Source: Zhongshania aquatica (GTDB lineage Bacteria; Pseudomonadota; Gammaproteobacteria; Pseudomonadales; Spongiibacteraceae). From it: 64,000 bases of DNA. Both the position numbers and the translations under genes were made by a program. The notes beneath the pieces were generated by a model that was given only the letters and a program-made list of their open reading frames with translations, was not told where the DNA came from and made no database searches. Each line of letters begins with the position of its first letter. Within the stretch, counting starts at the first letter, position 1. The DNA lies in the NCBI RefSeq assembly GCF_027257955.1, contig NZ_JANZNQ010000001.1, forward strand, positions 248,001 to 312,000. Reading direction: 5' to 3'. Of this stretch, positions 1 to 12,516 are shown in pieces.

Positions 1-1819
1 TGAACGCGCAGAGGAAATTATCGCAGGCGCAAAGATTCTGCGGCATATCATTAAACCGAACAAAGAAACCCTAATCGGTGTAGAAGACAATAAGCCAGAA
101 GGCATTGCCGCACTTGAAAAGGCCGCGGAAGGCACCGGCATTGAGATCGTCACTTTTCCGACCAAGTACCCCTCTGGCGGCGAAAAGCAGCTAATTCAAA
201 TCTTAACCGGCAAAGAAGTTCCCACTGGCGGGCTTCCTTCTGATGTCGGTATTGTGTGTCAAAACATCGGCACAGCAACGGCAATTTACCGCGCCATTCA
301 ATTTGGCGAGCCACTGATTTCCCGCATCACCACGGTGACCGGCGATGCATGCGAACAACCGCAAAATTACGAGACCTTACTGGGCACGCCGGTTCAGTAT
401 TTATTAGACAAAAGCGGCTTCAAAAAAGATGCCTGTATTCGTTTAATTATGGGCGGCCCCATGATGGGCTACACACTGCAAGACACCGCCGTGCCCATCG
501 TAAAAACAAGCAACTGCGTACTAGCGCCAACCGTAGCGGAATTGCCGCCACCGCCACCGGCTCAGGCCTGCATCCGCTGCGGCATGTGTGCAGAAGCCTG
601 CCCCGTTTCGCTTTTGCCTCAGCAAATGTACTGGTTCTCTCGTGCCCAAGAACACGAGAAGCTCGAAGATCATAAGTTGTTCGACTGCATCGAATGCGGC
701 GCCTGCTCCTTCGCCTGCCCGAGTAATATTCCATTAGTTCAGTACTACCGTGCATCAAAAGCTGAGATTCGCCAAGCGCAGCAAGACAAGATGAAAGCCG
801 AGCGCTCTAAAGAACGCTTTGAAGCGCGCACTGCAAGACTAGAACAAGAAGAAGCAGAGAAGGAAGCCAAACGCGCCGCGCGGATGGAAGCCGCGAAGGC
901 CAAAGCGGCTGCCGCCGCAAATGCACCGGACTCGAGCAAAGCCGATATTATTCAAGCCGCGATAGAACGCAGCAAAGCGAAAAAAGCCGAATCGGCTGAC
1001 CCCGCTCAAGCAGCCATCGCCCGTGCGCAGGCCAAACGTGATGGCAATGCCGAGGAAGAAAGTCCGCAGGAAAAAACCGAGCGCTTGCAAAAATTATTCG
1101 CCAGCGCCGAAAAACGTCTGACGGCGGCGAAAGAAAAACTCGCCCTTGCTCAAGAGCAACAAAGTGACAATGCAGATGCATTCGCCACAGCGGTGAGCAA
1201 AACCGAAGAAAAGCTCGCGGCAATTCAGCAAGAGCTGACTGAGCATCGAGCAAGCTTGACTCCGCCACCTGCAGACGCGACATCCGCAGACCCCGCCCAA
1301 GCGGCCATTGCCAGAGCCCTCGCAAAACGAGCCGGAACAACTGCGGACGAAAGCAAAGAAGACAAAACCGCGCGTTTGAAAAATACCGTAAGTACCACTG
1401 AAAAACGGCTTGCCGCAGCCCAAGAAAAGCTAGCACTGGCGCAAGAGCAGAATGACGCCAATGTCGCCGCCTTTGCCACCGGGGTTGAAAAAACCCAGGC
1501 TAAACTCGATACAGCAAAAAAAGAACTTAGCGATCATCTAGCCACGCTTGCCCCCAGTGATACAGCCAAGCAAATAGCGAGCGACGACCCTGTTCAAGCC
1601 GCCATTGAGCGCGCCAAGGCCGCACGCGAAGCGCAGGCTTCAATGAGTGATGCGGACAAGGTCAAACAAAATATCGAGTCGTTAGAAAATCGCATTGCCC
1701 GCACGAAAGAAAAGCTAGACGCCGCCCGCGCAGAGGGCAGCGACACAGCAGATATCTTGGCCGATTCATTAGCAAAACTAGAAGCCAAATTGGCCGCCGC
1801 TCAGCAACAACTGAGCTAA
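1..1819 (+). CDS. rnfC: RnfC, electron transport complex subunit C (5'-truncated by window edge)
   Basis: RnfC is the peripheral, NADH- or ferredoxin-facing Fe-S/flavin subunit of the membrane Rnf (Rsx) ion-pumping oxidoreductase. The open frame runs to the left edge with no start, so the N-terminus is missing; 605 codons are visible. Two 8Fe ferredoxin motifs are present, CIRCGMC...CP from nucleotide 569 and CIECGAC...CP from 686, each able to bind a [4Fe-4S] cluster. The segment before them is the soluble NuoF-like/SLBB part. After about nucleotide 760 the protein is a long Ala/Lys/Glu-rich coiled coil built of three roughly 97-residue repeats. It heads the rnfC-D-G-E genes; rnfA and rnfB are presumably just outside the window. 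Family identity is firm. Confidence 0.97.
   Translation, partial: ERAEEIIAGAKILRHIIKPNKETLIGVEDNKPEGIAALEKAAEGTGIEIVTFPTKYPSGGEKQLIQILTGKEVPTGGLPSDVGIVCQNIGTATAIYRAIQFGEPLISRITTVTGDACEQPQNYETLLGTPVQYLLDKSGFKKDACIRLIMGGPMMGYTLQDTAVPIVKTSNCVLAPTVAELPPPPPAQACIRCGMCAEACPVSLLPQQMYWFSRAQEHEKLEDHKLFDCIECGACSFACPSNIPLVQYYRASKAEIRQAQQDKMKAERSKERFEARTARLEQEEAEKEAKRAARMEAAKAKAAAAANAPDSSKADIIQAAIERSKAKKAESADPAQAAIARAQAKRDGNAEEESPQEKTERLQKLFASAEKRLTAAKEKLALAQEQQSDNADAFATAVSKTEEKLAAIQQELTEHRASLTPPPADATSADPAQAAIARALAKRAGTTADESKEDKTARLKNTVSTTEKRLAAAQEKLALAQEQNDANVAAFATGVEKTQAKLDTAKKELSDHLATLAPSDTAKQIASDDPVQAAIERAKAAREAQASMSDADKVKQNIESLENRIARTKEKLDAARAEGSDTADILADSLAKLEAKLAAAQQQLS
995..1816 (+). repeat. Tandem ~97-residue coding repeats in the RnfC C-terminus
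   Basis: Three successive units begin at 995, 1286 and 1583 with the same opening motif (D-P-x-Q-A-A-I-x-R-A) followed by a predicted coiled coil of the type EKRLxAAxEKLALAQEQ. The first unit spans 291 bp and the second 297 bp; the third is shortened at the gene end. A degenerate opening motif also occurs near 941. Repeats of this kind with A-A-I-A-R-A-K motifs are known in long gammaproteobacterial RnfC/RsxC proteins. Confidence 0.85.
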
Positions 1820-1846
1820 ACCCAGATTACGAGCACCAGTGACATT

Positions 1847-2896
1847 ATGGGATTTTTAAAAGTCAGTTCACCACATGCCCACGGCCCCATGAGCACCGCG
1901 AGAGTGATGCGCTTGGTGCTACTGGCGACCATTCCCGGCGTGTTTTCGCTGACCTTTTTCTTCGGTTTTGGCACGCTCATGAATGTACTCTGGGCGAGCA
2001 TTACCGCACTTGCGTTTGAAGCCTTAGCCTTAAAACTTCGCAAGCGCCCCATCGGTTTTTATCTCAATGATTACAGCGCCCTAGTCACGGCATTTTTACT
2101 CGGCATTGCGCTACCGCCAGCGTCACCGTTCTGGCTCATCATGATCGGCACCGGTTTTGCCATACTCATTTGCAAGCAGCTATACGGCGGTATGGGCTAC
2201 AACCCCTTCAATCCCGCCATGGCTGCCTATGTCATGCTGTTAATATCCTTTCCTGTACAAATGACCACATGGCTAGCGCCCAAAGGCAGTTTTGCAGGCG
2301 ATCTGTTAGGCCCGATCGATGCGTTGCGCTACTGCTTTGGTTTTGGCCGCGAGGCCATAGACGCCATCACCATGGCAACCCCGCTGGATGTACTCAAACA
2401 AAATAATTCACTGCTGGTCAAAGACCTCTGGGAAGAATCAGCCCAGTTTGGCCAATTCGCAGGAATAGGTTGGGAATGGGCGAACATTGGATTTTTACTC
2501 GGCGGCATTTATCTTCTCTATCGACGCGTGTTCACATGGCACGCGCCAATAAGCATGCTAGCCTCGTTAACCGTCATGTCGGCTCTCTTCTACGATGGCG
2601 GAAGCTCAGCTTCAGGTGGTTCACCGCTGTTTCACTTGCTCAGTGGCGCGACCATGCTCGGCGCATTCTTCATCGTGACTGATCCCGTTACCTCCGCAGT
2701 GTCCAATCGCGGTCGCCTTATTTACGGTGCGCTCATCGGGGTTTTGGTCTACATCATTCGAGTCTGGGGTAACTATCCCGACGCGGTGGCATTTTCTGTT
2801 TTACTAATGAATTTTGCCGCGCCATTTATCGACCACTACACCCAACCCAGAACCTATGGTCATAAACTGAAGGATCAGCAGGGAGGAAAGTCATGA
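1847..2896 (+). CDS. rnfD: RnfD, electron transport complex subunit D
   Basis: RnfD is an integral membrane subunit of the Rnf complex, related to NqrB, which carries covalently bound FMN. The 349-residue protein has about nine to ten hydrophobic segments. The likely FMN-bearing threonine is Thr178 in the T-M-A-T-P-L-D motif, matching the S/T-x-A-T rule of NqrB/RnfD; a second S-G-A-T motif lies at about residue 266-269. The conserved GGMGYNPFNPA segment occurs near residue 113. It lies 27 bp after rnfC and its stop overlaps the rnfG start by 4 bp (ATGA), implying translational coupling. Confidence 0.97.
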   Translation: MGFLKVSSPHAHGPMSTARVMRLVLLATIPGVFSLTFFFGFGTLMNVLWASITALAFEALALKLRKRPIGFYLNDYSALVTAFLLGIALPPASPFWLIMIGTGFAILICKQLYGGMGYNPFNPAMAAYVMLLISFPVQMTTWLAPKGSFAGDLLGPIDALRYCFGFGREAIDAITMATPLDVLKQNNSLLVKDLWEESAQFGQFAGIGWEWANIGFLLGGIYLLYRRVFTWHAPISMLASLTVMSALFYDGGSSASGGSPLFHLLSGATMLGAFFIVTDPVTSAVSNRGRLIYGALIGVLVYIIRVWGNYPDAVAFSVLLMNFAAPFIDHYTQPRTYGHKLKDQQGGKS

Positions 2897-3567
2897 ACAT
2901 CCTCGGCAAATCCATCACCAAGAATGGCATCCTGTTGGGTCTTTTCGCCATCGTCACCACAGGCGTGATTGCCGGTACGTACCTCTCAACCCGCGGATTA
3001 ATCCAAGACAATATTCGCCATGCAGAAGAAAGTGCGCTGCTAGAGCTATTCCCTAAATCTCGCCATGACAACTCCATGCTCGACGACGCTATCAGTGTCG
3101 ACAACAGCGAACTGCTCGGACTGCGAGAAGCTAAAAAACTCTACCGCGCCAGTATGAACAGTGAATTCGTCGGCGCAATCCTACCTGCGACAGCACGAGA
3201 CGGATACACCGGCGACGTAGATATGATTGTCGGCATTAACCGGGATGGCACCATCGCCGGAGTACGGGTGCTTTCCCACCGAGAAACCCCAGGTCTTGGC
3301 GACCAGGTCGACTACAAAAAAAGCCAGTGGGTAGATGGATTTATTGGTAAAAGCCTAACTAATCCAGAAGAATCAAAATGGGCAGTGAAAAAAGACAAAG
3401 GGGTATTCGACCAATTTACCGGTGCCACCATCACCCCAAGGGCGGTTACTAAAGCCGTACACAAAGCATTACAATACTACGACGCTAACATCGATACGAT
3501 CAGCGACATCAATGATTCGCTCAGCGCCGATCTGAACACCCAATCAAATTCGGGAATCCAGCAATGA
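2893..3567 (+). CDS. rnfG: RnfG, electron transport complex subunit G
   Basis: RnfG is the mostly periplasmic subunit of the Rnf complex, anchored by one N-terminal membrane helix (about residues 13-31), and carries a second covalent FMN. The FMN-binding domain is complete: the T-G-A-T-I-T-P motif places the modified residue at Thr179, and the upstream [12 protein letters not shown] motif near residue 133 is typical of the family. Length (224 residues) is normal. The start overlaps the rnfD stop and its own stop overlaps the rnfE start by 4 bp. Confidence 0.97.
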
Positions 3568-4277
3568 GTGACATCAGCTACCGCGAAATATCACTAAACG
3601 GACTCTGGAAGAACAATCCCGCCATTGTTCAGCTATTAGGCTTGTGCCCATTACTCGCCGTCACAGGCTCAGTAATAAACGCCTTAGGCATGGGCTTAGC
3701 GACAATGTTAGTACTCACTGTGTCGAACACCTGCGTCTCCATGATTCGCAACTTTGCCTCGGATGCCATTCGTCTGCCCGCCTTCGTCATGATCATCGCG
3801 GCAGCAGTAACCTGCATAGAGCTACTCATGCAGGCCTTCGCTTACGAGCTATTTCAAATACTCGGTATCTTCCTGCCACTCATCACCACCAACTGCGTCA
3901 TCCTCGGACGCGCCGACGCCTTCGCCTGTAAAAACAAAGTACTGCCAGCCATGTATGACGGCTTCATTATGGGTGTAGGCTTCGCGGTAATACTCATGCT
4001 ATTGGGCGCCATTCGTGAAGTTATCGGCACGGGCGCCATCTTCGCCAATATGGATCTACTGTTCGGCGAAGGCGCAAAAAGCTGGAAAATCGTGTTGGTA
4101 GATGACTACACCGCCGTCCTTGTCGCCATTCTACCGCCCGGTGCGTTTATATTTACCGGCATGATCATCGCGCTGAAGAATATTATCGATACCGGCATTA
4201 AAAACCGCGAAGCAGCGAAAACAGAGAAAGTTGCACCGACGAGTAGGCGGGTTCGGGTGACGGGGAATATAAGTTAA
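3564..4277 (+). CDS. rnfE: RnfE, electron transport complex subunit E
   Basis: RnfE is an integral membrane subunit homologous to NqrD and RnfA. The 237-residue protein shows six hydrophobic segments. Cys28 (in L-G-L-C-P) and Cys111 (in T-T-N-C-V) correspond to the cysteines that, with RnfA, hold an Fe-S centre inside the membrane. It is the last gene of the visible operon. In many Gammaproteobacteria nth (endonuclease III) follows rnfE; here it does not, and the next gene is on the opposite strand. Confidence 0.96.
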
Positions 4278-4500: not shown

Positions 4501-5754
4501 CTACAGATGCTTACAATTAAGATTTCTGTCCGCAAAAGGTAAAAAGAAATATGCCGACACCATCAGAAACATCGATAGCGGCATGATGTGGTAAAACAGC
4601 CCATCAAAAACCGAAAATACTGGAATCGAAATAACTAACGCGGCGAGCACCACATCTGCCAATGAAGATGACCTTCCGATTACAATCTTAAGGCACTTAA
4701 AAAGCAAATACCCGAAGATCAAGAATATAGCTAAGGACCCAATCACGCCGAATTCGAGTAAAAATTGAACTACAAAATTGTGCGGCTGGACAATATTTGA
4801 CCCCATAACACCAAGGCGAATAAAGGCATCAGGCCCAGCACCAAATAACCAAGAACCATCCAAGGCTTCGATGCTTCTCGACCAAATTGACAATCGACCT
4901 GAAGAAATCCTATTAATAGTGGCGTCAGCGGCGCTCCGCGTCAGAGAATTAAAAAGAATATGGGTTTCACCACTCAACACCAAGGCCAAACCACCTGAAA
5001 AAAGGCCGAAAGGAATAACCATATATTTCTTGAGATTAGCTCTAAAGCTTCTATTCATAAACGACAAAACCAAAAAAGCTAGCAATGCTACCCACTGGCC
5101 CCGACCACCGGTCCAAAGAGTCAAAAAACCAAGTATAAAAAATATTGGAAAAGCAAGATAATGCGCGATACGCCCTCTAAAGATCATCCAGGCAGACAAA
5201 CCAATCAAAAAAGCCAAATCGTAATTCATGTGGCGTAAATGTCGGTAAAGTGGGGGGTGCCCTTTTATATTACGCCTCCACTCCAAAAGATCCGCTCCCA
5301 AATAAACATAGAAGAAATAAACACATGTTCCGATAAGCGACAGCAATTTTAAGTAATATACCCACTCCAAACCTTTTTCGTCACTAACATGAAGCCAAGC
5401 CAAAAATCCGAAGATGAACATAAGTTGAGCGACGTAAACCCATCCCCGATATATTCCTAAAACCGGAATATAATGGCACGCCCAGACCATCACCATCAAA
5501 AACATAACAAAACAAAAAATCCTAAAAATAAGGCTTTCCTTGATAGCAGCGACAAACAAAATAATTGCTTCAGGCAACATTATTAATGAAAATATCAGCT
5601 GTTCAATCGACGTCCAATAGTTCACCAGCAAAGAGGTATTGCTATATGTAAACAACAGCGGCGAGATTACAATTGCAACCAAAACAGCGGACGCCAATGC
5701 AACTCGAAATTTAAGACTTGCTATAAAATAGTCTTTCAGCACATTCCAACCCAT
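4501..5754 (-). CDS. O-antigen ligase (Wzy_C/WaaL) family membrane protein, possible pilin O-oligosaccharyltransferase
   Basis: The 417-residue protein is almost entirely hydrophobic, with about ten to twelve membrane segments. It has the family's hallmarks: W-T-G-G-R-G-Q-W in a membrane helix near residue 210 and a large periplasmic loop before HNFVVQFLLEFGVIG near residue 330, resembling the H-N-x-x-L-Q-x-x-x-E-x-G motif. Members either ligate O-antigen to lipid A core, polymerise O-antigen, or transfer oligosaccharide to proteins (PglL, TfpO). No other LPS-glycan gene lies nearby, while pilA is two genes upstream on the same strand, so pilin glycosylation is the favoured inference. The pilin does not end in serine, which argues against the TfpO C-terminal-Ser mode. 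The start overlaps the preceding stop as TAATG. Base use is A+T-rich. Confidence 0.75.
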   Translation of the reverse strand: MGWNVLKDYFIASLKFRVALASAVLVAIVISPLLFTYSNTSLLVNYWTSIEQLIFSLIMLPEAIILFVAAIKESLIFRIFCFVMFLMVMVWACHYIPVLGIYRGWVYVAQLMFIFGFLAWLHVSDEKGLEWVYYLKLLSLIGTCVYFFYVYLGADLLEWRRNIKGHPPLYRHLRHMNYDLAFLIGLSAWMIFRGRIAHYLAFPIFFILGFLTLWTGGRGQWVALLAFLVLSFMNRSFRANLKKYMVIPFGLFSGGLALVLSGETHILFNSLTRSAADATINRISSGRLSIWSRSIEALDGSWLFGAGPDAFIRLGVMGSNIVQPHNFVVQFLLEFGVIGSLAIFLIFGYLLFKCLKIVIGRSSSLADVVLAALVISIPVFSVFDGLFYHIMPLSMFLMVSAYFFLPFADRNLNCKHL

Positions 5755-7643
5755 TAATTTTCAGAAAAGACACGATTGTTATGTAGCGAGATCAGACTCA
5801 AGCCTTTACTCAGCCAATCTTCACTTACAATGGTTTGGCGATACCCCCCGCCATGCAGTGGATCTCCGTCCAACAAATAACATTTTTGCAGTTCGCCAAC
5901 ACTACCGAGATAAATTTCACCATAACTTTTCGCCATGCATTCTTGGTGAGCCCCACCACAACTACCGCTCGCCATACTGCAAAGCATATTCCCGACACGC
6001 ACAGAGACTTCACCACTTTTCATCATTATCGCCCATGGCTTCTCTACTGCAGTAAGCAGATCCTTACCTACAAAATTAGAACTGTATTTGGTAAGTCCCA
6101 ACATCGACAACAAGGTGGGAGGAATATCTATTTGACTGCCCACTTGAGTAATTTCGATCGGCTTATCGATATAAGGATGATAGATAGCCAATGGCATTCG
6201 AAAAAACTGCTCATTTTTTATAAGGATATCCGCCTTTTCGGAATCTCGGTCAAACGCCCATATCCCATGATCCGAAGTAACTAAAACAATAGTATTTGAT
6301 GCTAAAGCGGAATGACGAAACGCATCCCAGAATTTTGAAAACGCATAATCTTCGTAATGTGCAGCGGTTAAGTAATTTGAGAAAAGCTCTACCCCTCCGG
6401 CAGCACTCAGGTAATCTGGGGACGGCAAGCCCCACTCCCACTTAAAGGGATAGTGACTACTCAATGTGGTAATGTGCGCAAAGAACGGCTCGCTTTCACC
6501 ACTCAATTTATCCAACATTAGACCATACATTGCCTCGTCCGAAACTCCCCAACCAATCTCGGGTAAATTCGCCTCTTTGCGACGCTCAGCGTCAAAAAAC
6601 TCTAGTTGCTGAAAACCTATTTTCGGAAGATATTGATCGCGGTTATAAAATTGGCTTTTATTTCCATGGAAATAGAGTGTTTTATAACCTTCTCTCGCTA
6701 GTATTTCCGGCAAACACTCCAGATTTTTAATCTCGTCCGCGAACTTCGAATAGGGAGGCTTGCTGCTGTAATCGAAGATACCGCACCAAATAGCCGTCTC
6801 TCCTTTTACAGTAAAGTTTGTATTTGCGTAGAATTGTGTCGCTTTAATATTTTCATTAGCAAATTGATTCAGATGTGGAGTTACATCGCCCACCTCAGGA
6901 TAAGGTCTCATCAAAGACGCGCGAATCGACTCCAGCGTAATTACGATGACATTTAATTTTTCGGACGGCCGCGCATCCAGCCCACTACTAATCGTTTTTC
7001 GATTAAGGCTTTTAAATTCTAATTCCGCTGCAACCTGCCCCTTCTCTAGTGCTTTTGGCAAACTTTCTCGCACAAAAAAAGCATGCACGGGGCTGACATA
7101 AGAAGGGGAAAGTGTAAACACCGACAGCTGACGGTAACGATCAAACGAAACTGTTAAAGTTATTGCAGCCACCAATGTGATGACCAAGGGAAATGCTATT
7201 AACACAGCTCTTACCTTGACTATAGGCGTTAAAGGCTTGCTGTGGACACATATGGAAATAATGGCCAATACCAATCCTATACCTGATATCCAGAGCAGAT
7301 CAGACAAAAGACTAAATTCGGAAATCGCCCTAAAGCTGTCGAGAGAGTCATCGATTAAGGATAACGACTGGTAATTAAAGTAGGTCTGGAAATACTGGAA
7401 ATACCACCAGTTACCGGCACTCAATATCACATGTACAAGCCACACCCCAATAACAGTAGACGCATATATCCATCTGGAAAACCAACTCGAAATTAAGACT
7501 ATAGAAAGGGAGAGTGATGCAATAAAAACGGCACTCAGCATGCCCGACGGATGAGGGTTGAGGCGCCCAAAATATGATGTAAAAGCAAACAACAAGACCA
7601 TTGCAGCTGCGCAGGTTAGACTGGACTCAAAAATTCGTTTCAA
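5754..7643 (-). CDS. LtaS/OpgB-like phosphotransferase (sulfatase-fold membrane enzyme)
   Basis: This 629-residue protein has about five N-terminal membrane helices (within residues 10-165) and a periplasmic alkaline-phosphatase/sulfatase-fold domain. The metal and catalytic residues of lipoteichoic-acid-synthase-type enzymes can be placed: Glu238 (T-L-E-S), nucleophile Thr284 (K-G-E-T), Asp458-His459 (S-D-H-G), and His397. Spacing closely parallels LtaS (E255, T300, D475, H476). Such enzymes move phosphoglycerol, or in related groups phosphoethanolamine, onto acceptors. A Cys-rich tail near residues 545-580 is unusual. The start is TTG with a weak ribosome site; no ATG lies upstream in frame. 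It sits 121 bp after pilA behind an intrinsic terminator and is coupled to the glycosyltransferase-like gene. Acting on pilin is my inference; lipid A or periplasmic glucan are alternatives. Confidence 0.75.
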   Translation of the reverse strand: MKRIFESSLTCAAAMVLLFAFTSYFGRLNPHPSGMLSAVFIASLSLSIVLISSWFSRWIYASTVIGVWLVHVILSAGNWWYFQYFQTYFNYQSLSLIDDSLDSFRAISEFSLLSDLLWISGIGLVLAIISICVHSKPLTPIVKVRAVLIAFPLVITLVAAITLTVSFDRYRQLSVFTLSPSYVSPVHAFFVRESLPKALEKGQVAAELEFKSLNRKTISSGLDARPSEKLNVIVITLESIRASLMRPYPEVGDVTPHLNQFANENIKATQFYANTNFTVKGETAIWCGIFDYSSKPPYSKFADEIKNLECLPEILAREGYKTLYFHGNKSQFYNRDQYLPKIGFQQLEFFDAERRKEANLPEIGWGVSDEAMYGLMLDKLSGESEPFFAHITTLSSHYPFKWEWGLPSPDYLSAAGGVELFSNYLTAAHYEDYAFSKFWDAFRHSALASNTIVLVTSDHGIWAFDRDSEKADILIKNEQFFRMPLAIYHPYIDKPIEITQVGSQIDIPPTLLSMLGLTKYSSNFVGKDLLTAVEKPWAIMMKSGEVSVRVGNMLCSMASGSCGGAHQECMAKSYGEIYLGSVGELQKCYLLDGDPLHGGGYRQTIVSEDWLSKGLSLISLHNNRVFSEN

Positions 7644-7670
7644 GATAGGCCACTCTACTTGCTTACCATT

Positions 7671-7696
7671 AAAAAAGGGGAGTCCAGAGACTCCCC
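7671..7696 (-). terminator. Intrinsic terminator after pilA
   Basis: On the minus strand, GGGGAGTC and GACTCCCC form a perfect 8-bp stem with a 4-nt loop (7677-7696) followed directly by six T. It lies 68 bp after the pilA stop and 28 bp before the next start codon on the same strand, so it would cut most pilin transcripts while some read through into the two downstream genes. Confidence 0.9.
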
Positions 7697-7736
7697 TTCA
7701 ATTCCAAGCAGCCAGCAAAACTAAAATCAGCCGGCC

Positions 7737-7764
7737 TAAACAATACTAAACAATACTAAACAAT
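7737..7764. repeat. Tandem decamer CAATACTAAA next to pilA stop
   Basis: The 10-bp unit TAAACAATAC occurs twice plus most of a third copy, ending in the pilA stop codon region. It is in the 3' untranslated part of the pilin transcript, just ahead of the terminator. Confidence 0.8.
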
Positions 7765-8249
7765 CAGTTCTGAGCGATACGACATGAGCCAGGCAGGTAC
7801 TTTGCATTGCCAGCAGTATCAGTAGTGGTGTCTGGCCCACATACCCACTGCGCAACCAAGCCGCCCGCAGCAACATCAGCACAAGTTGCAAACGTTGTTG
7901 CAGTTGCATTTGAACAAGGCTTCATCTGAACGATAACCGGAGTTGCGCCTAAACTTTGAGATGTAACGGTGACCAAACCAACAGCGTTAGTTTCAATAGA
8001 TGCCACATATTTACTAGTAGACGTGCTTGATTCACAACCCCATTCATTTGCATCCGGCAATGTAGTCGAACTCTGAACAACCTCAGTAATAGAAGTACGG
8101 CACGCTGAAGCCGCAAGTACCACTTCAGAAGCCTTGGCACGAATGGTGTAGTCTTGGTAAGCAGGTAAGGCAACCGCTGCCAAAATACCGATAATCGCGA
8201 TAACGATCATCAATTCGATAAGAGTAAAACCTTGTTGTGTTCTTTTCAT
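7764..8249 (-). CDS. pilA: PilA, type IVa major pilin precursor
   Basis: Structural subunit of the type IV pilus. The 161-residue precursor starts [19 protein letters not shown]: a 7-residue basic leader ending in Gly, Phe at mature position 1 and Glu at position 5, exactly what PilD cleaves and methylates. The hydrophobic N-terminal helix is followed by a Thr/Ser-rich globular domain with several cysteines; the last pair (about residues 142 and 157) would form the C-terminal D-loop. The ATG at 8249 is chosen over longer frames because the leader is canonical and GGAGT lies 7 bp upstream. The chain ends in Asn, not Ser. Assembly genes pilB, pilC and pilD lie divergently upstream. A sigma-54-like promoter precedes it. 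Confidence 0.96.
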
Positions 8250-8627: not shown

Positions 8628-10346
8628 ATGAACAGCCCCATAACGCCTTTAAATGGTTTAGCCCGACGCCTTGTTTACGATGAGGTTCTTGACGAAGATA
8701 CCGTTCGTAAAGCTCAGGAAACCGCCCAAAAAGATAAGAAAAGCCTCGTTTCCTACTTAGTCAGCAAAAATTTAGCAGATGGCGTTCGCATTGCGGAAAT
8801 AGCGGCGGATGAATTCGGCATTCCTTTTATCGATCTACGCTCGTATACAACAGAGCTGGCTCCCCAAAAAATTATCGATAACAAGCTGATAAAGCTTCAC
8901 CGAGCTTTGCCGTTGTGGAAACGCGGAAAGCGTTTGTTTATTGGCATGTCTGACCCAACCAATATTCACGGCCTAGACCAGATTAAATTCCATACAGGCT
9001 TAACTACCGAACCCATCATTGTCGAAGAGGCTGCACTGAATTCGGCTATTGAGAAATACCTAGCAGCTCAGGAAGAATCCCTCGCCGATAGTCTTGGCGA
9101 TATGGATGATATCAATTTAGAAAATCTAGATATAGAAGCCGTCGACGAGACCGGCGGTGGTGATGTTGAGCTTAAAGGTGCTGACGAAGCTCCAGTGGTT
9201 AAGTTTGTAAACAAAGTACTATTGGATGCAATTCGCGGAGGGGCGTCTGATATCCATTTTGAACCCTACGAAAAGATTTATCGAGTCCGTTTTCGTACCG
9301 ACGGCATATTGCAAGAAGTCGCGCGTCCGCCCGCATCTTTAGGATACCGCCTAGCTGCACGTCTTAAGGTTATGTCCCAGATGGACATTTCCGAACGGCG
9401 AGTGCCGCAAGATGGCCGAATTAAGATGAAGCTGTCTAAAACCCGAGCAATAGATTTTCGGGTAAATACGCTGCCTACCCTTTGGGGGGAGAAAGTAGTT
9501 TTGCGGATTCTCGATCCCAGCTCAGCCCAGATGGGTATAGATGCGCTGGGCTATGAACCCACGCAAAAAGATATGTATATGAAAACCCTGAATCAGCCAC
9601 AGGGCATGATTTTGGTAACTGGCCCGACAGGCTCAGGTAAAACAGTTTCGCTCTATACCGGTTTAAATATACTTAATACGCCTGAACGAAATATCTCTAC
9701 AGCCGAAGACCCGGTAGAGATTAACTTGGAAGGCATTAACCAAGTTCACGTAAATGCCAAAGTGGGACTTGGCTTCCCTGAAGCCCTCCGCTCCTTCCTA
9801 CGGCAGGACCCTGACATCATCATGGTCGGTGAGATTCGAGATTTGGAAACGGCGGAGATCGCTATCAAGGCGGCCCAAACAGGTCATTTGGTTTTATCGA
9901 CACTCCACACCAACAGCGCCTCAGAAACCCTAACGCGACTCCTCAATATGGGAGTGCCCGCATTTAACGTTGCCACCTCCGTTAGTTTAATTATTGCGCA
10001 GCGTCTCGCAAGGCGCTTATGCAAAGAATGCGCTATACCTTTAGATGTACCGCAACATACCTTAATTGAGGAAGGCTTTACCGCTGAACAATTAGAGTCA
10101 GCGACTATTATGCACCCCGTTGGTTGCGACCGCTGCAATAATGGCTACAAAGGCCGCGTGGGCATTTACGAAGTTGTTCGCATCACGCCAGAGATATCCC
10201 GTATTATTATGGAGAATGGCAACTCCATTGAAATTGCCGCCCAAGCGCAAAAAGAAGGCTTCCCTAATTTGCGACAATCCGCGCTGAAGAAGTGCGCACA
10301 GGGCGTTACTAGTCTTGAAGAAGTAAACCGAGTGACGAAGGATTAA
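8628..10346 (+). CDS. pilB: PilB, type IV pilus extension ATPase
   Basis: Cytoplasmic hexameric ATPase that powers pilus extension. The 572-residue protein has an N-terminal MshEN/GspE-N domain (about 5-150) and a C-terminal secretion ATPase core. Walker A is GPTGSGKT at 332-339; Walker B with the following arginine (D-I-I-M-V-G-E-I-R-D) starts at 396; the His box TGHLVLSTLHTN follows. A tetracysteine zinc site is formed by Cys465, Cys468, Cys500 and Cys503. All elements expected for PilB rather than the retraction ATPase PilT are present. It starts the pilB-C-D-coaE-yacG run, with 2 bp before pilC. Confidence 0.97.
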   Translation: MNSPITPLNGLARRLVYDEVLDEDTVRKAQETAQKDKKSLVSYLVSKNLADGVRIAEIAADEFGIPFIDLRSYTTELAPQKIIDNKLIKLHRALPLWKRGKRLFIGMSDPTNIHGLDQIKFHTGLTTEPIIVEEAALNSAIEKYLAAQEESLADSLGDMDDINLENLDIEAVDETGGGDVELKGADEAPVVKFVNKVLLDAIRGGASDIHFEPYEKIYRVRFRTDGILQEVARPPASLGYRLAARLKVMSQMDISERRVPQDGRIKMKLSKTRAIDFRVNTLPTLWGEKVVLRILDPSSAQMGIDALGYEPTQKDMYMKTLNQPQGMILVTGPTGSGKTVSLYTGLNILNTPERNISTAEDPVEINLEGINQVHVNAKVGLGFPEALRSFLRQDPDIIMVGEIRDLETAEIAIKAAQTGHLVLSTLHTNSASETLTRLLNMGVPAFNVATSVSLIIAQRLARRLCKECAIPLDVPQHTLIEEGFTAEQLESATIMHPVGCDRCNNGYKGRVGIYEVVRITPEISRIIMENGNSIEIAAQAQKEGFPNLRQSALKKCAQGVTSLEEVNRVTKD

Positions 10347-10348
10347 TA

Positions 10349-11563
10349 ATGGCAGCAACATCCAAAACACAGGTTTTTGTTTGGCAGGGCGTAGATAAGC
10401 AGGGCCGAAAAACACGAGGCGAGCTTACTGCCGGGTCTAGCGCCTTGGTCAAGGCTCACCTTCGGAAACAAGGCATTGCTGCTAAAAATGTGAAGCGCAA
10501 ACCAAAGCCTCTTTTCAGCAATAAAAAACCGATAAAGCCTGCAGATATCGCGATTTTCACGCGTCAAATGGCAACCATGCTTAAAGCGGGTGTACCTTTA
10601 GTACAAAGTTTCGACATTGTGGCTGAAGGCGTTGAAAACCCGACCATGCAAGAACTAGTTGTCGATATTAAAAACGAAGTTGCTTCCGGTGGCGGTTTTG
10701 CCGCTGCTTGCGCGAAACACCCTCAATATTTTGACGACCTGTTTTGCAGTTTGATTTCTTCAGGCGAGCAATCCGGTACGCTGGAGGTAATGCTTGACCG
10801 AGTCGCTACCTATAAAGAAAAAACTGAGGCACTGAAAGCTAAAATCAAAAAAGCACTTACCTACCCAATCGCAGTTATGGTTGTTGCCGTTGTAGTTACA
10901 GCAATTCTATTGATCAAAGTAGTACCAACTTTTGCGGTCACCTTTGAAAGCTTTGGCTCAGACCTTCCCGCTTTTACAAAAATGGTGGTCGGCTTATCTG
11001 AGTGGACGCAAGGCAACTGGTATATTGTATTGGGTCTAGCCATCGTCGCCGGCGCCGCGTTTAAGAAGGGAAGAGAAAAGTCCCAGCCATTTTCAGATTG
11101 GGTCGATAAGATGACCCTAAAAATGCCAGTGGTTGGCGACATCGTATTCAATTCCGTCATAGCACGCTTTTCTAGAACCCTTGCCACAACATTTGGCGCG
11201 GGTGTTCCACTGGTTGATGCGCTGAATTCGGTTTCGGGTGCAGCCGGCAACGCGGTATACCGAAAAGCCATAATTCAGATTAGGGACGATGTAACGACTG
11301 GTCAAACCTTGTATTCGTCGATCCGCTTCACCAACCTGTTCCCAAACATGCTTCTGCAGATGGTATCCATCGGCGAAGAGTCTGGATCACTGGATGAAAT
11401 GTTAGACAAAGTCGCCACCCATTATGAAGAAGCCGTAGATAATGCTGTAGACACACTTACCGCCTTGTTAGAGCCATTTATCATGTCGGTACTTGGCGTA
11501 TTAGTTGGGGGCTTAATGATCGCGATGTACCTACCTATTTTCATGCTAGGTTCTGCAATGTAA
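10349..11563 (+). CDS. pilC: PilC, type IV pilus inner-membrane platform protein
   Basis: Polytopic platform protein that links the PilB motor to the growing pilus. The 404-residue sequence contains two type II secretion F domains (about 70-195 and 275-397), each ending in hydrophobic helices; the repeat signature FTRQMATMLKAGVPLVQS and its partner FSRTLATTFGAGVPLVDA are clear. Length matches the family. It begins 2 bp after pilB, so translation is likely coupled. Confidence 0.97.
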   Translation: MAATSKTQVFVWQGVDKQGRKTRGELTAGSSALVKAHLRKQGIAAKNVKRKPKPLFSNKKPIKPADIAIFTRQMATMLKAGVPLVQSFDIVAEGVENPTMQELVVDIKNEVASGGGFAAACAKHPQYFDDLFCSLISSGEQSGTLEVMLDRVATYKEKTEALKAKIKKALTYPIAVMVVAVVVTAILLIKVVPTFAVTFESFGSDLPAFTKMVVGLSEWTQGNWYIVLGLAIVAGAAFKKGREKSQPFSDWVDKMTLKMPVVGDIVFNSVIARFSRTLATTFGAGVPLVDALNSVSGAAGNAVYRKAIIQIRDDVTTGQTLYSSIRFTNLFPNMLLQMVSIGEESGSLDEMLDKVATHYEEAVDNAVDTLTALLEPFIMSVLGVLVGGLMIAMYLPIFMLGSAM

Positions 11564-11628
11564 AGCCATCCACTTTCTTGAAAAAATGCTCCCAGTTGAG
11601 CTGAATAGACATTTTTCTGAGTATTGTT

Positions 11629-12516
11629 ATGACGTTATTTGAGGCTATAGCGAGGGAACCAGCCCTCACTATAGGGTTAGTAGGTATTGTTGGATTACTC
11701 CTTGGCAGCTTTTTCAACGTTGTCATTTACCGACTCCCGAAAATGATGGAAGCCAATTGGCGACAGGAGTGTGAATACTTACTCAGTGACGACAAAGATT
11801 CATCGCCACAAATATCACAGACCGAGCAATTCAATCTAGCCATACCCAATTCACATTGCCCTTCCTGCAATGCGCCAATAAAGGCGTGGCAAAACATTCC
11901 AGTAATTAGTTATGCGATGTTGGGTGGACGCTGCGCTAGCTGCAAGACTAGCATTAGCCTGCGCTACCCACTTATTGAAGTTATCACGGCGCTATTAAGC
12001 GTCTTTCCCTTATTAATGTTCGGCCTTACGCCCTACGCCTTTGCTATTATTTTGTTCAGCTGGCTACTGCTGATTCTTACCGTTATTGATATAGACCATC
12101 AACTTTTACCAGACCAAGTTACCCTACCTCTGCTTTGGCTCGGGCTTCTCTATAACAGCATATTTGCCCACATCCCGATTACCGATGCACTGTGGGGAGC
12201 GATGGCCGGCTATATGATTTTATGGAGCGTGTTTTGGCTCTTTAAAATTGTTACTGGCAAAGAAGGTATGGGATACGGTGATTTCAAATTACTAGCAGCC
12301 TTGGGCGCATGGCTTGGCTGGCAGTATTTACCTTTAATAATTCTTCTGTCGTCGGTCGTAGGGGCGGTATGTGGCGGGATTATATTAGTGGCGAAACGCA
12401 ACTCAACATCCACACCCATGCCGTTCGGTCCCTACTTAGCAGGCGCAGGCTGGATAGCGGTTTTCTGGGGCGATACGATTATTAATACTTATCTTGGTGT
12501 TGCTGGGCTTCGCTAA
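11629..12516 (+). CDS. pilD: PilD, prepilin peptidase and N-methyltransferase
   Basis: Bifunctional inner-membrane aspartic protease that cuts the type IV prepilin leader and methylates the new N-terminus. The 295-residue protein has the N-terminal cytoplasmic zinc motif (CPSC ... CASC, about residues 79-105) and two catalytic aspartates: Asp154 in V-I-D-I-D and Asp218 in G-M-G-Y-G-D-F-K. About seven membrane segments are visible. The PilA leader at this locus is a proper substrate. It lies 65 bp after pilC. Confidence 0.97.
   Translation: MTLFEAIAREPALTIGLVGIVGLLLGSFFNVVIYRLPKMMEANWRQECEYLLSDDKDSSPQISQTEQFNLAIPNSHCPSCNAPIKAWQNIPVISYAMLGGRCASCKTSISLRYPLIEVITALLSVFPLLMFGLTPYAFAIILFSWLLLILTVIDIDHQLLPDQVTLPLLWLGLLYNSIFAHIPITDALWGAMAGYMILWSVFWLFKIVTGKEGMGYGDFKLLAALGAWLGWQYLPLIILLSSVVGAVCGGIILVAKRNSTSTPMPFGPYLAGAGWIAVFWGDTIINTYLGVAGLR

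Follow-up and report, generated by a model that had tools for sequence, protein, structure and literature searches.

Pilin genes of Pseudomonas aeruginosa lie in cassettes (groups I and III–V) with one or more accessory genes, those of TfpO, TfpW, or TfpX/Y/Z, directly 3′ of pilA, a terminator hairpin between, and an accessory type that tracks the pilin type. TfpO is placed in the Wzy_C family. It is described as a pilin glycosyltransferase adding O-antigen units, and a terminator after pilA is a common feature of these cassettes, whose accessory proteins, as named in the introduction to the cited paper, include no LtaS-type enzyme (PMC11841053). In contrast, such an enzyme is encoded in a candidate cassette from Zhongshania aquatica, located in a stretch of 64,000 nucleotides (contig NZ_JANZNQ010000001.1, positions 248,001 to 312,000), here called the window. 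It comprises pilA, an LtaS-type transferase gene, and a gene for a Wzy_C-family membrane ligase, and is read, with slightly better than even confidence and from sequence comparisons, as a pilin accessory cassette in which the LtaS-type enzyme would put phosphoglycerol on the pilin, probably at Ser74/Ser75, beside glycosylation by the ligase.

In Neisseria, pptB lies away from pilE, and pilin phosphoforms are, to our knowledge, documented mainly in that genus. Ser69 of PilE carries phosphoglycerol in strains with pptB and may bear phosphocholine, phosphoethanolamine, or phosphoglycerol (PMC10948894), while another strain has phosphoglycerol on PilE Ser69 and Ser97 (PMC4569582). Reportedly, phosphoglycerol on these pili influences both pilus–pilus contacts and detachment from microcolonies (PMC8445170). 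The window locus resembles the PptB/PilE system in the same predicted group, at an aligned serine (Ser75 for Ser69) of a homologous pilin and beside O-glycosylation, and differs from it in the linkage of the enzyme gene to pilA.

All three genes lie on the minus strand, with rnfE on one side and pilBCD on the other (names assigned by eye). The pilA gene (7764..8249) encodes a major type IVa prepilin of 161 amino acids with Pfam N_methyl and Pilin matches, for which cleavage is expected after Gly7. The LtaS-type gene (5754..7643, TTG start) encodes 629 amino acids matching Sulfatase (PF00884, E 2.9e-38), and the ligase gene (4501..5754) encodes 417 amino acids matching Wzy_C (PF04932, 46.1 bits, gathering cut-off 31.7), a candidate pilin O-oligosaccharyltransferase. 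These open reading frames (ORFs) and Pfam matches confirm the original prediction, which had placed pilA, LtaS-like, and O-antigen-ligase-like genes here. The stop/start overlap TAATG joins the two enzyme genes, which are therefore probably translationally coupled, as had been proposed, and 120 bases with a terminator-like hairpin after pilA uncouple the pilin gene from them.

The linkage of the enzyme subfamily to pilA was followed in 21 genomes of the family, searched with the enzyme at E 1e-10 and with the ligase at E 1e-5. The enzyme query gave seven matches, six of them close (at least 41% identity, the window's own included) and the seventh a distant protein at another place; in 6/6 close matches, among them one from the same genus (G012), the enzyme gene is directly 3′ of pilA. 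All seven ligase matches (E 1e-5 or better) sit at pilA loci, the ligase following the enzyme in the window, G001, and G005 and preceding pilA in G012, G016, and G017. In G005, ligases flank both sides, one 5′ of pilA and one after the LtaS-type gene; the upstream one (L018:7257-8527) is a second Wzy_C gene that spans two overlapping frames, through either a frameshift or a sequencing error. A scan of GTDB species genomes, which detects only relatives sharing one of two peptide patterns, gave nine loci, four already in the family set and five new (L091, L098, L092, L093, and L094), the latter with a pilin directly upstream in 5/5. The LtaS subfamily is accordingly represented by 11 distinct loci, and a same-strand pilin gene is directly upstream in 11/11. 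An adjacent Wzy_C-type gene is present in 10/10 loci with enough context (nine by Pfam; L020 by similarity); L094, which ends at the contig end, is excluded from this count, and the ligase of L091 is also partial. The ligase gene is convergent in L091 and L098. The LtaS-type gene of L093, from a metagenome-assembled genome, is split over two overlapping frames (L093:655-2564) and was counted as a locus but left out of the protein alignments.

Generic LtaS-like proteins behave differently. A search of 369 genomes from the class gave such proteins at 1e-40 in 24 further genomes (140–170 bits versus 959 for the window's), and 0/24 showed a pilin motif 1.5 kb or less from the matched stretch. Set against the 11/11 linkage, this marks the pilA-linked subfamily as a discrete, rare group: homologues lying mostly away from pilin genes are what is found for the wider LtaS superfamily, not for the subfamily, and gene linkage strongly supports the predicted pilin-decoration cassette of pilA, an LtaS-type phosphotransferase, and a Wzy_C ligase. 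The 390 genomes of the order gave six matches at 1e-60, one of them the distant L104. A search of a further family found carriers in 2/112 genomes, which were equated with L091 and L098 by their contig coordinates and not counted again, and that of another family found 0/22. On viral contigs, 139 stretches matched the pattern, with 0 confirmed relatives; on plasmids, 31 records matched, all below 60% identity and none covering 80% of the query, and of the ten listed, seven carry the annotation lipoteichoic acid (LTA) synthase family protein and the other three carry none.

Two distant LtaS-like genes stand outside the 11 loci. L009 (G002, 26% identity) has no pilin among the surrounding ORFs listed in L022. 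L104 (G033, 246.8 bits) lies at a contig end, with no pilin on the visible side, a divergent neighbor that resembles polysialyltransferases by eye, and T-V-R-A-E as its nucleophile motif.

The outer neighbors of the 11 loci, named by eye, are varied: pilBCD and rnf in four loci, pilBCD and nadC in L021, nadC without pilBCD in L017, pilBC or pilBCD in L091, L098, and L092, cinA/mutS in L093, and trpF in L094. In L017 (G001, Litorivivens), pilB is on a separate contig, with no pilin found in its surrounding 12 kb. Constant pilin linkage amid such variety argues against the view that both enzymes serve lipopolysaccharide (LPS) or periplasmic glucans and stand beside pilA by chance, which is very improbable. 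That view draws on the cassette ligase being the sole Wzy_C match over the cut-off in its genome, a separate WaaL not having been found by this model, so that the ligase may, judged by its family, be this strain's LPS ligase; it also draws on MdoG, which is present in 2/6 carriers. However, MdoG was not found in 4/6 carriers, the window's genome included, and 15/21 family genomes yielded no member of the ligase subfamily at E 1e-5, which speaks against a housekeeping role. A second Wzy_C match in the genome, a 184-aa ORF below the cut-off, was taken as chance.

The pilins themselves point to a site. The motif WGCESS is present in 11/11 partner pilins and in 0/35 pilin rows taken from enzyme-free genomes; in the window, the Ser74-Ser75 codons (mature residues 67–68), the proposed phosphoglycerol site, are at 8025..8030 on the minus strand. 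The motif was spotted by eye before an all-column scan, whose comparison set was limited to [WF]GC pilins, 11 partner versus 20 same-type (19 distinct). Positions 74 and 75 were the most discriminating, each 11/11 versus 5/20, and the serine pair as such gave 11/11 versus 0/20 (Fisher 1.2e-8, uncorrected for kinship). The lack of the enzyme in the genomes behind these 20 was established in the family and order searches. The G019 pilin has no WGC motif. One genome supplying negatives, G003, is 70% complete and one searched genome, G158, is 84% complete, and the absence of the enzyme is therefore less sure in these two. Cys50, Cys72, Cys137, and Cys156 are common to 11/11 partner pilins, the window pilin having two more (Cys112 and Cys123). 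Some form of action of the gene set on the pilin is judged highly probable.

On the pilin tree, from which the program left out 1 of 46 rows, carriers are not one clade; five changes are required, two of them forced by starred branches. The window pilin is sister to that of L105, which has GCESA and comes from a genome without the enzyme; a neighbor gene product in L105 resembles PglL by eye. L017 groups with L020 and L021 on the pilin tree (100/99) and with the window and L018 on the enzyme tree (100/99), a conflict suggesting that pilins were exchanged but retained the serine pair.

The nearest solved chains to the window pilin are PilE of gonococcus and meningococcus. In 5kua and 8p3b (meningococcal) and in 2hi2 (gonococcal), Ser75 aligns with PilE Ser69 and Ser74 with residue 68, a register obtained from a single-sequence alignment (numbering checked for 5kua and 2hi2) and likewise from a profile built on the 11 partner pilins, read by eye. 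Together with the enzyme and ligase genes that accompany pilA, a shared serine pair at the meningococcal phosphoglycerol place suggests a second, separately assembled route of pilus decoration.

The 629-aa protein is nearest to LtaS among NCBIfam models, with 132.7 bits for NF053595 against a cut-off of 970, while the OpgB models NF009027 and NF003000 give 65.2 and 40.2 bits, their cut-offs being 572 and 574, respectively. The AlphaFold2 (AF2) model (mean predicted local distance difference test, pLDDT, 68; alignment of nine rows) has five N-terminal helices of membrane-crossing length, followed by the catalytic domain. Compared with solved structures by VIA, this domain is closest to LtaP (Z 38.6, root-mean-square deviation 2.9, 375 residues aligned), then to VP1736 (Z 37.5), Listeria LtaS (Z 36.5), and Staphylococcus aureus LtaS (Z 36.0), in agreement with the LtaS likeness first proposed; YejM (Z 30.5) and sulfatases rank below, and GacH is also among the structural matches. 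By this model, the protein carries an LtaS-type catalytic domain. Like LtaS and LtaP, it has a membrane part and then a catalytic domain that shares their fold and metal dependence, with a nucleophilic Thr and the conserved His and Arg of the presumed glycerol-phosphate site; unlike them, it stays far under the LtaS cut-off, comes from a Gram-negative bacterium and is pilin-linked, and no glycerol-phosphate polymer is expected from it. With OpgB/MdoB, phosphoglycerol transferase I, it shares the superfamily and the predicted donor and differs in the scores given above and in the carriers without a detected MdoG.

Glu238 and Thr278 are invariant in 10/10 rows, the window's included, and Asp458 and His459 are present in all nine rows reaching them; the four fall on what we take to be the metal ligands and nucleophile of LtaP and S. 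aureus LtaS. The Thr278 codon is at 6810..6812 (minus strand), and this residue, the predicted nucleophile, aligns with the Thr of the T-x-D-x-E motif of both LtaP and S. aureus LtaS, which reads TSDSE in 2w5q and TADAE in 4uop. Of the catalytic residues named in the original prediction, Glu238, Asp458, and His459 held, while Thr284 did not: residue 284 is Ala, and the adjacent Thr283 is Val, Leu, or Asn in 4/10 rows. The alignment and conservation of Thr278 place the earlier nucleophile a few residues off. His326, Arg335, and His397 are invariant in every row covering them and fall on what is presumably the glycerol-phosphate site of LtaS (His347, Arg356, and His416).

These residues bear on two further explanations. 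PptA-type phosphoethanolamine transferases are of the same superfamily, and the enzyme might transfer a different headgroup to the pilin, such as phosphoethanolamine, in the manner of Neisseria PptA; this is improbable, as LtaP and LtaS are the closest solved folds, neither Pfam nor NCBIfam reported an EptA-type model for the protein up to E 1, and His326, Arg335, and His397 retain the LtaS pattern. PilE Ser69, which can bear phosphocholine or phosphoethanolamine (PMC10948894), is in favor of this explanation. A non-catalytic, helping role in assembly, like that suggested for TfpY, is still more improbable, since the metal-site residues are invariant in all rows covering them, although group III and V pilins, which go with TfpY and TfpZ, are reported as unmodified (PMC11841053).

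The main rival concerns the acceptor. The LtaS-type enzyme could add phosphoglycerol to the pilin-bound or lipid-linked glycan of the ligase instead of the protein, which is unlikely but the weightiest of the alternatives. Glycans or glycolipids are the substrates of LtaS, OpgB, and GacH, the last of which also appeared as a structural match of the protein, and a Wzy_C-type ligase accompanies the LtaS-type enzyme in 10/10 cassettes with visible context. However, the ligases vary, with 20–42% identity to that of the window, two gene orders, and a convergent one, whereas the LtaS subfamily and the serine pair are constant; the pair thus follows the LtaS enzyme more than any ligase type. With the glycan as main rival, phosphoglycerol on Ser74/Ser75 of the pilin would be the leading product at about an even chance, as judged from these comparisons.

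The ligases share R-H-x-x-Y, G-R-G, R-x-x-x-W, and P-H motifs (eight compared), and His175, Arg218, Arg287, and His325 are invariant in all eight. The best solved match to the fold of the window ligase is WaaL (Foldseek E 3.4e-3, Z 13.4), with FtsW/RodA close behind, which is an uncertain level for helical proteins. PglL_A (PF15864) and Wzy_C_2 (PF11846) were not reported in it at E up to 1; such domains are seen in the L087 ligase.

Several points weigh against pilin phosphoglycerylation at Ser74/Ser75. In the gonococcal structure 1ay2, residue 69 is Pro, Ser74 falling on Ser68 and Ser75 on Pro69 or a later Ser, and the alignment of the pilin and PilE loops contains gaps. The PptB site is given as Ser93 in one paper (PMC8445170); set beside the reports of Ser69, this means that the phosphoglycerol site varies or was revised. 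Among the 20 pilins without the enzyme, the Ser75 equivalent alone occurs in five and the Ser74 equivalent alone in another five, only the pair being exclusive; the pilins compared are related, one of the 20 being a duplicate, and the pilin tree offers two supported independent pairs, both agreeing and not significant. In the AF2 model, the Thr278 loop has a pLDDT below 50. In the enzyme alignment, the equivalents of LtaS Asp349 and Trp354 (numbering presumed) are Asn/Tyr and Tyr/Asn, by which the donor pocket is unlike that of LtaS in detail. The window hairpin is also absent from the list of a standard terminator scan, perhaps missed there because the stem can extend into the T tail.

That hairpin, found in our own scan (7668..7697 with its T-run, minus strand; hairpin 7697-7676), has a perfect 9-bp stem, a loop of 4, and six T in eight, and was equalled by 1/100 single-base shuffles. 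A G+C-rich hairpin with a T-run lies between pilA and the enzyme gene in 11/11 loci, with a perfect stem in ten and one mismatch in L020, and shuffles did as well in 0–1/100 each; in L019, the T-run extends to the listed start codon. In the proposed course of events, PilA would be made at a high level, and the hairpin would let only some transcripts reach the enzyme genes. The LtaS-type enzyme would be anchored in the inner membrane with a periplasmic catalytic domain, where Glu238, Thr278, Asp458, and His459 would hold a metal ion and Thr278 would take glycerol phosphate, presumably from phosphatidylglycerol. This would be passed to the membrane-embedded pilin, most likely to Ser75 or its neighbor Ser74, and the Wzy_C ligase would move a glycan from a lipid carrier to a different pilin site.

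The other 15 genomes of the family have different gene sets near pilA. In five (L075, L077, L078, L081, and L084, in G006, G008, G009, G013, and G018, respectively), a membrane protein of 630–660 aa is encoded, with TPR matches in the two tested and a glycosyltransferase and an ABC-type protein alongside by eye, apparently another pilin glycosylation cassette. In three (L082, L083, and L086, in G014, G015, and G020, respectively), a Wzy_C protein of 460–500 aa is encoded directly 3′ of pilA and no LtaS-type gene accompanies it; two consecutive pilin genes are present in L082. One genome has a PglL-type protein, and three have a membrane protein of 255–285 aa, with no family over the cut-off in the two tested, that we take to resemble TfpY/TfpZ. 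No accessory set was seen at pilA in the remaining three, one of which is at a contig end. Such different sets in 15 relatives mark the locus as a hot spot for pilin accessory genes.

The cassette (4501-8249) has 42.8% G+C, compared with 52.4% for rnf (254-4277), 46.9% for pilBCD (8628-12516), and 49.0% for the whole window; its predicted A+T richness is evident against rnf, but the contrast with pilBCD is small. A sigma54-like −24/−12 match (8327-8312), 78 bases upstream of the pilA start, was given no weight; apart from the window, the pattern was found only in L021 (232 bases upstream) and in 0/9 others, L093 offering only 97 bases. The rnfC-like ORF (254-1819) has a long, repetitive C-terminal tail rich in Ala, Lys, and Glu.

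An LtaS-type or LTA-synthase gene with a pilin or pilA was undescribed among the literature matches listed (titles and starts of abstracts, with most subscription papers outside the coverage), and the same search found no paper on a Zhongshania pilin. Each component is known by itself, be it the accessory cassette, the LtaS-type enzyme, or phosphoglycerol on pilins, and their combination appears to be new. It adds to the pilin accessory cassettes described in Pseudomonas, and a function is proposed for an LtaS-like subfamily of Gram-negative genomes. Tentatively, and with a little less than even confidence, pilus phosphoglycerylation may have been assembled more than once, here with an LtaS-type enzyme in a mobile pilin/ligase cassette that uses the Neisseria position, and the serine pair and the enzyme may form a transferable decoration module for surface charge, bundling, or phage binding. 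With a marine cassette in which the enzyme is tied to the pilin and a serine can be named, the role of pilus phosphoglycerol becomes testable outside pathogens.

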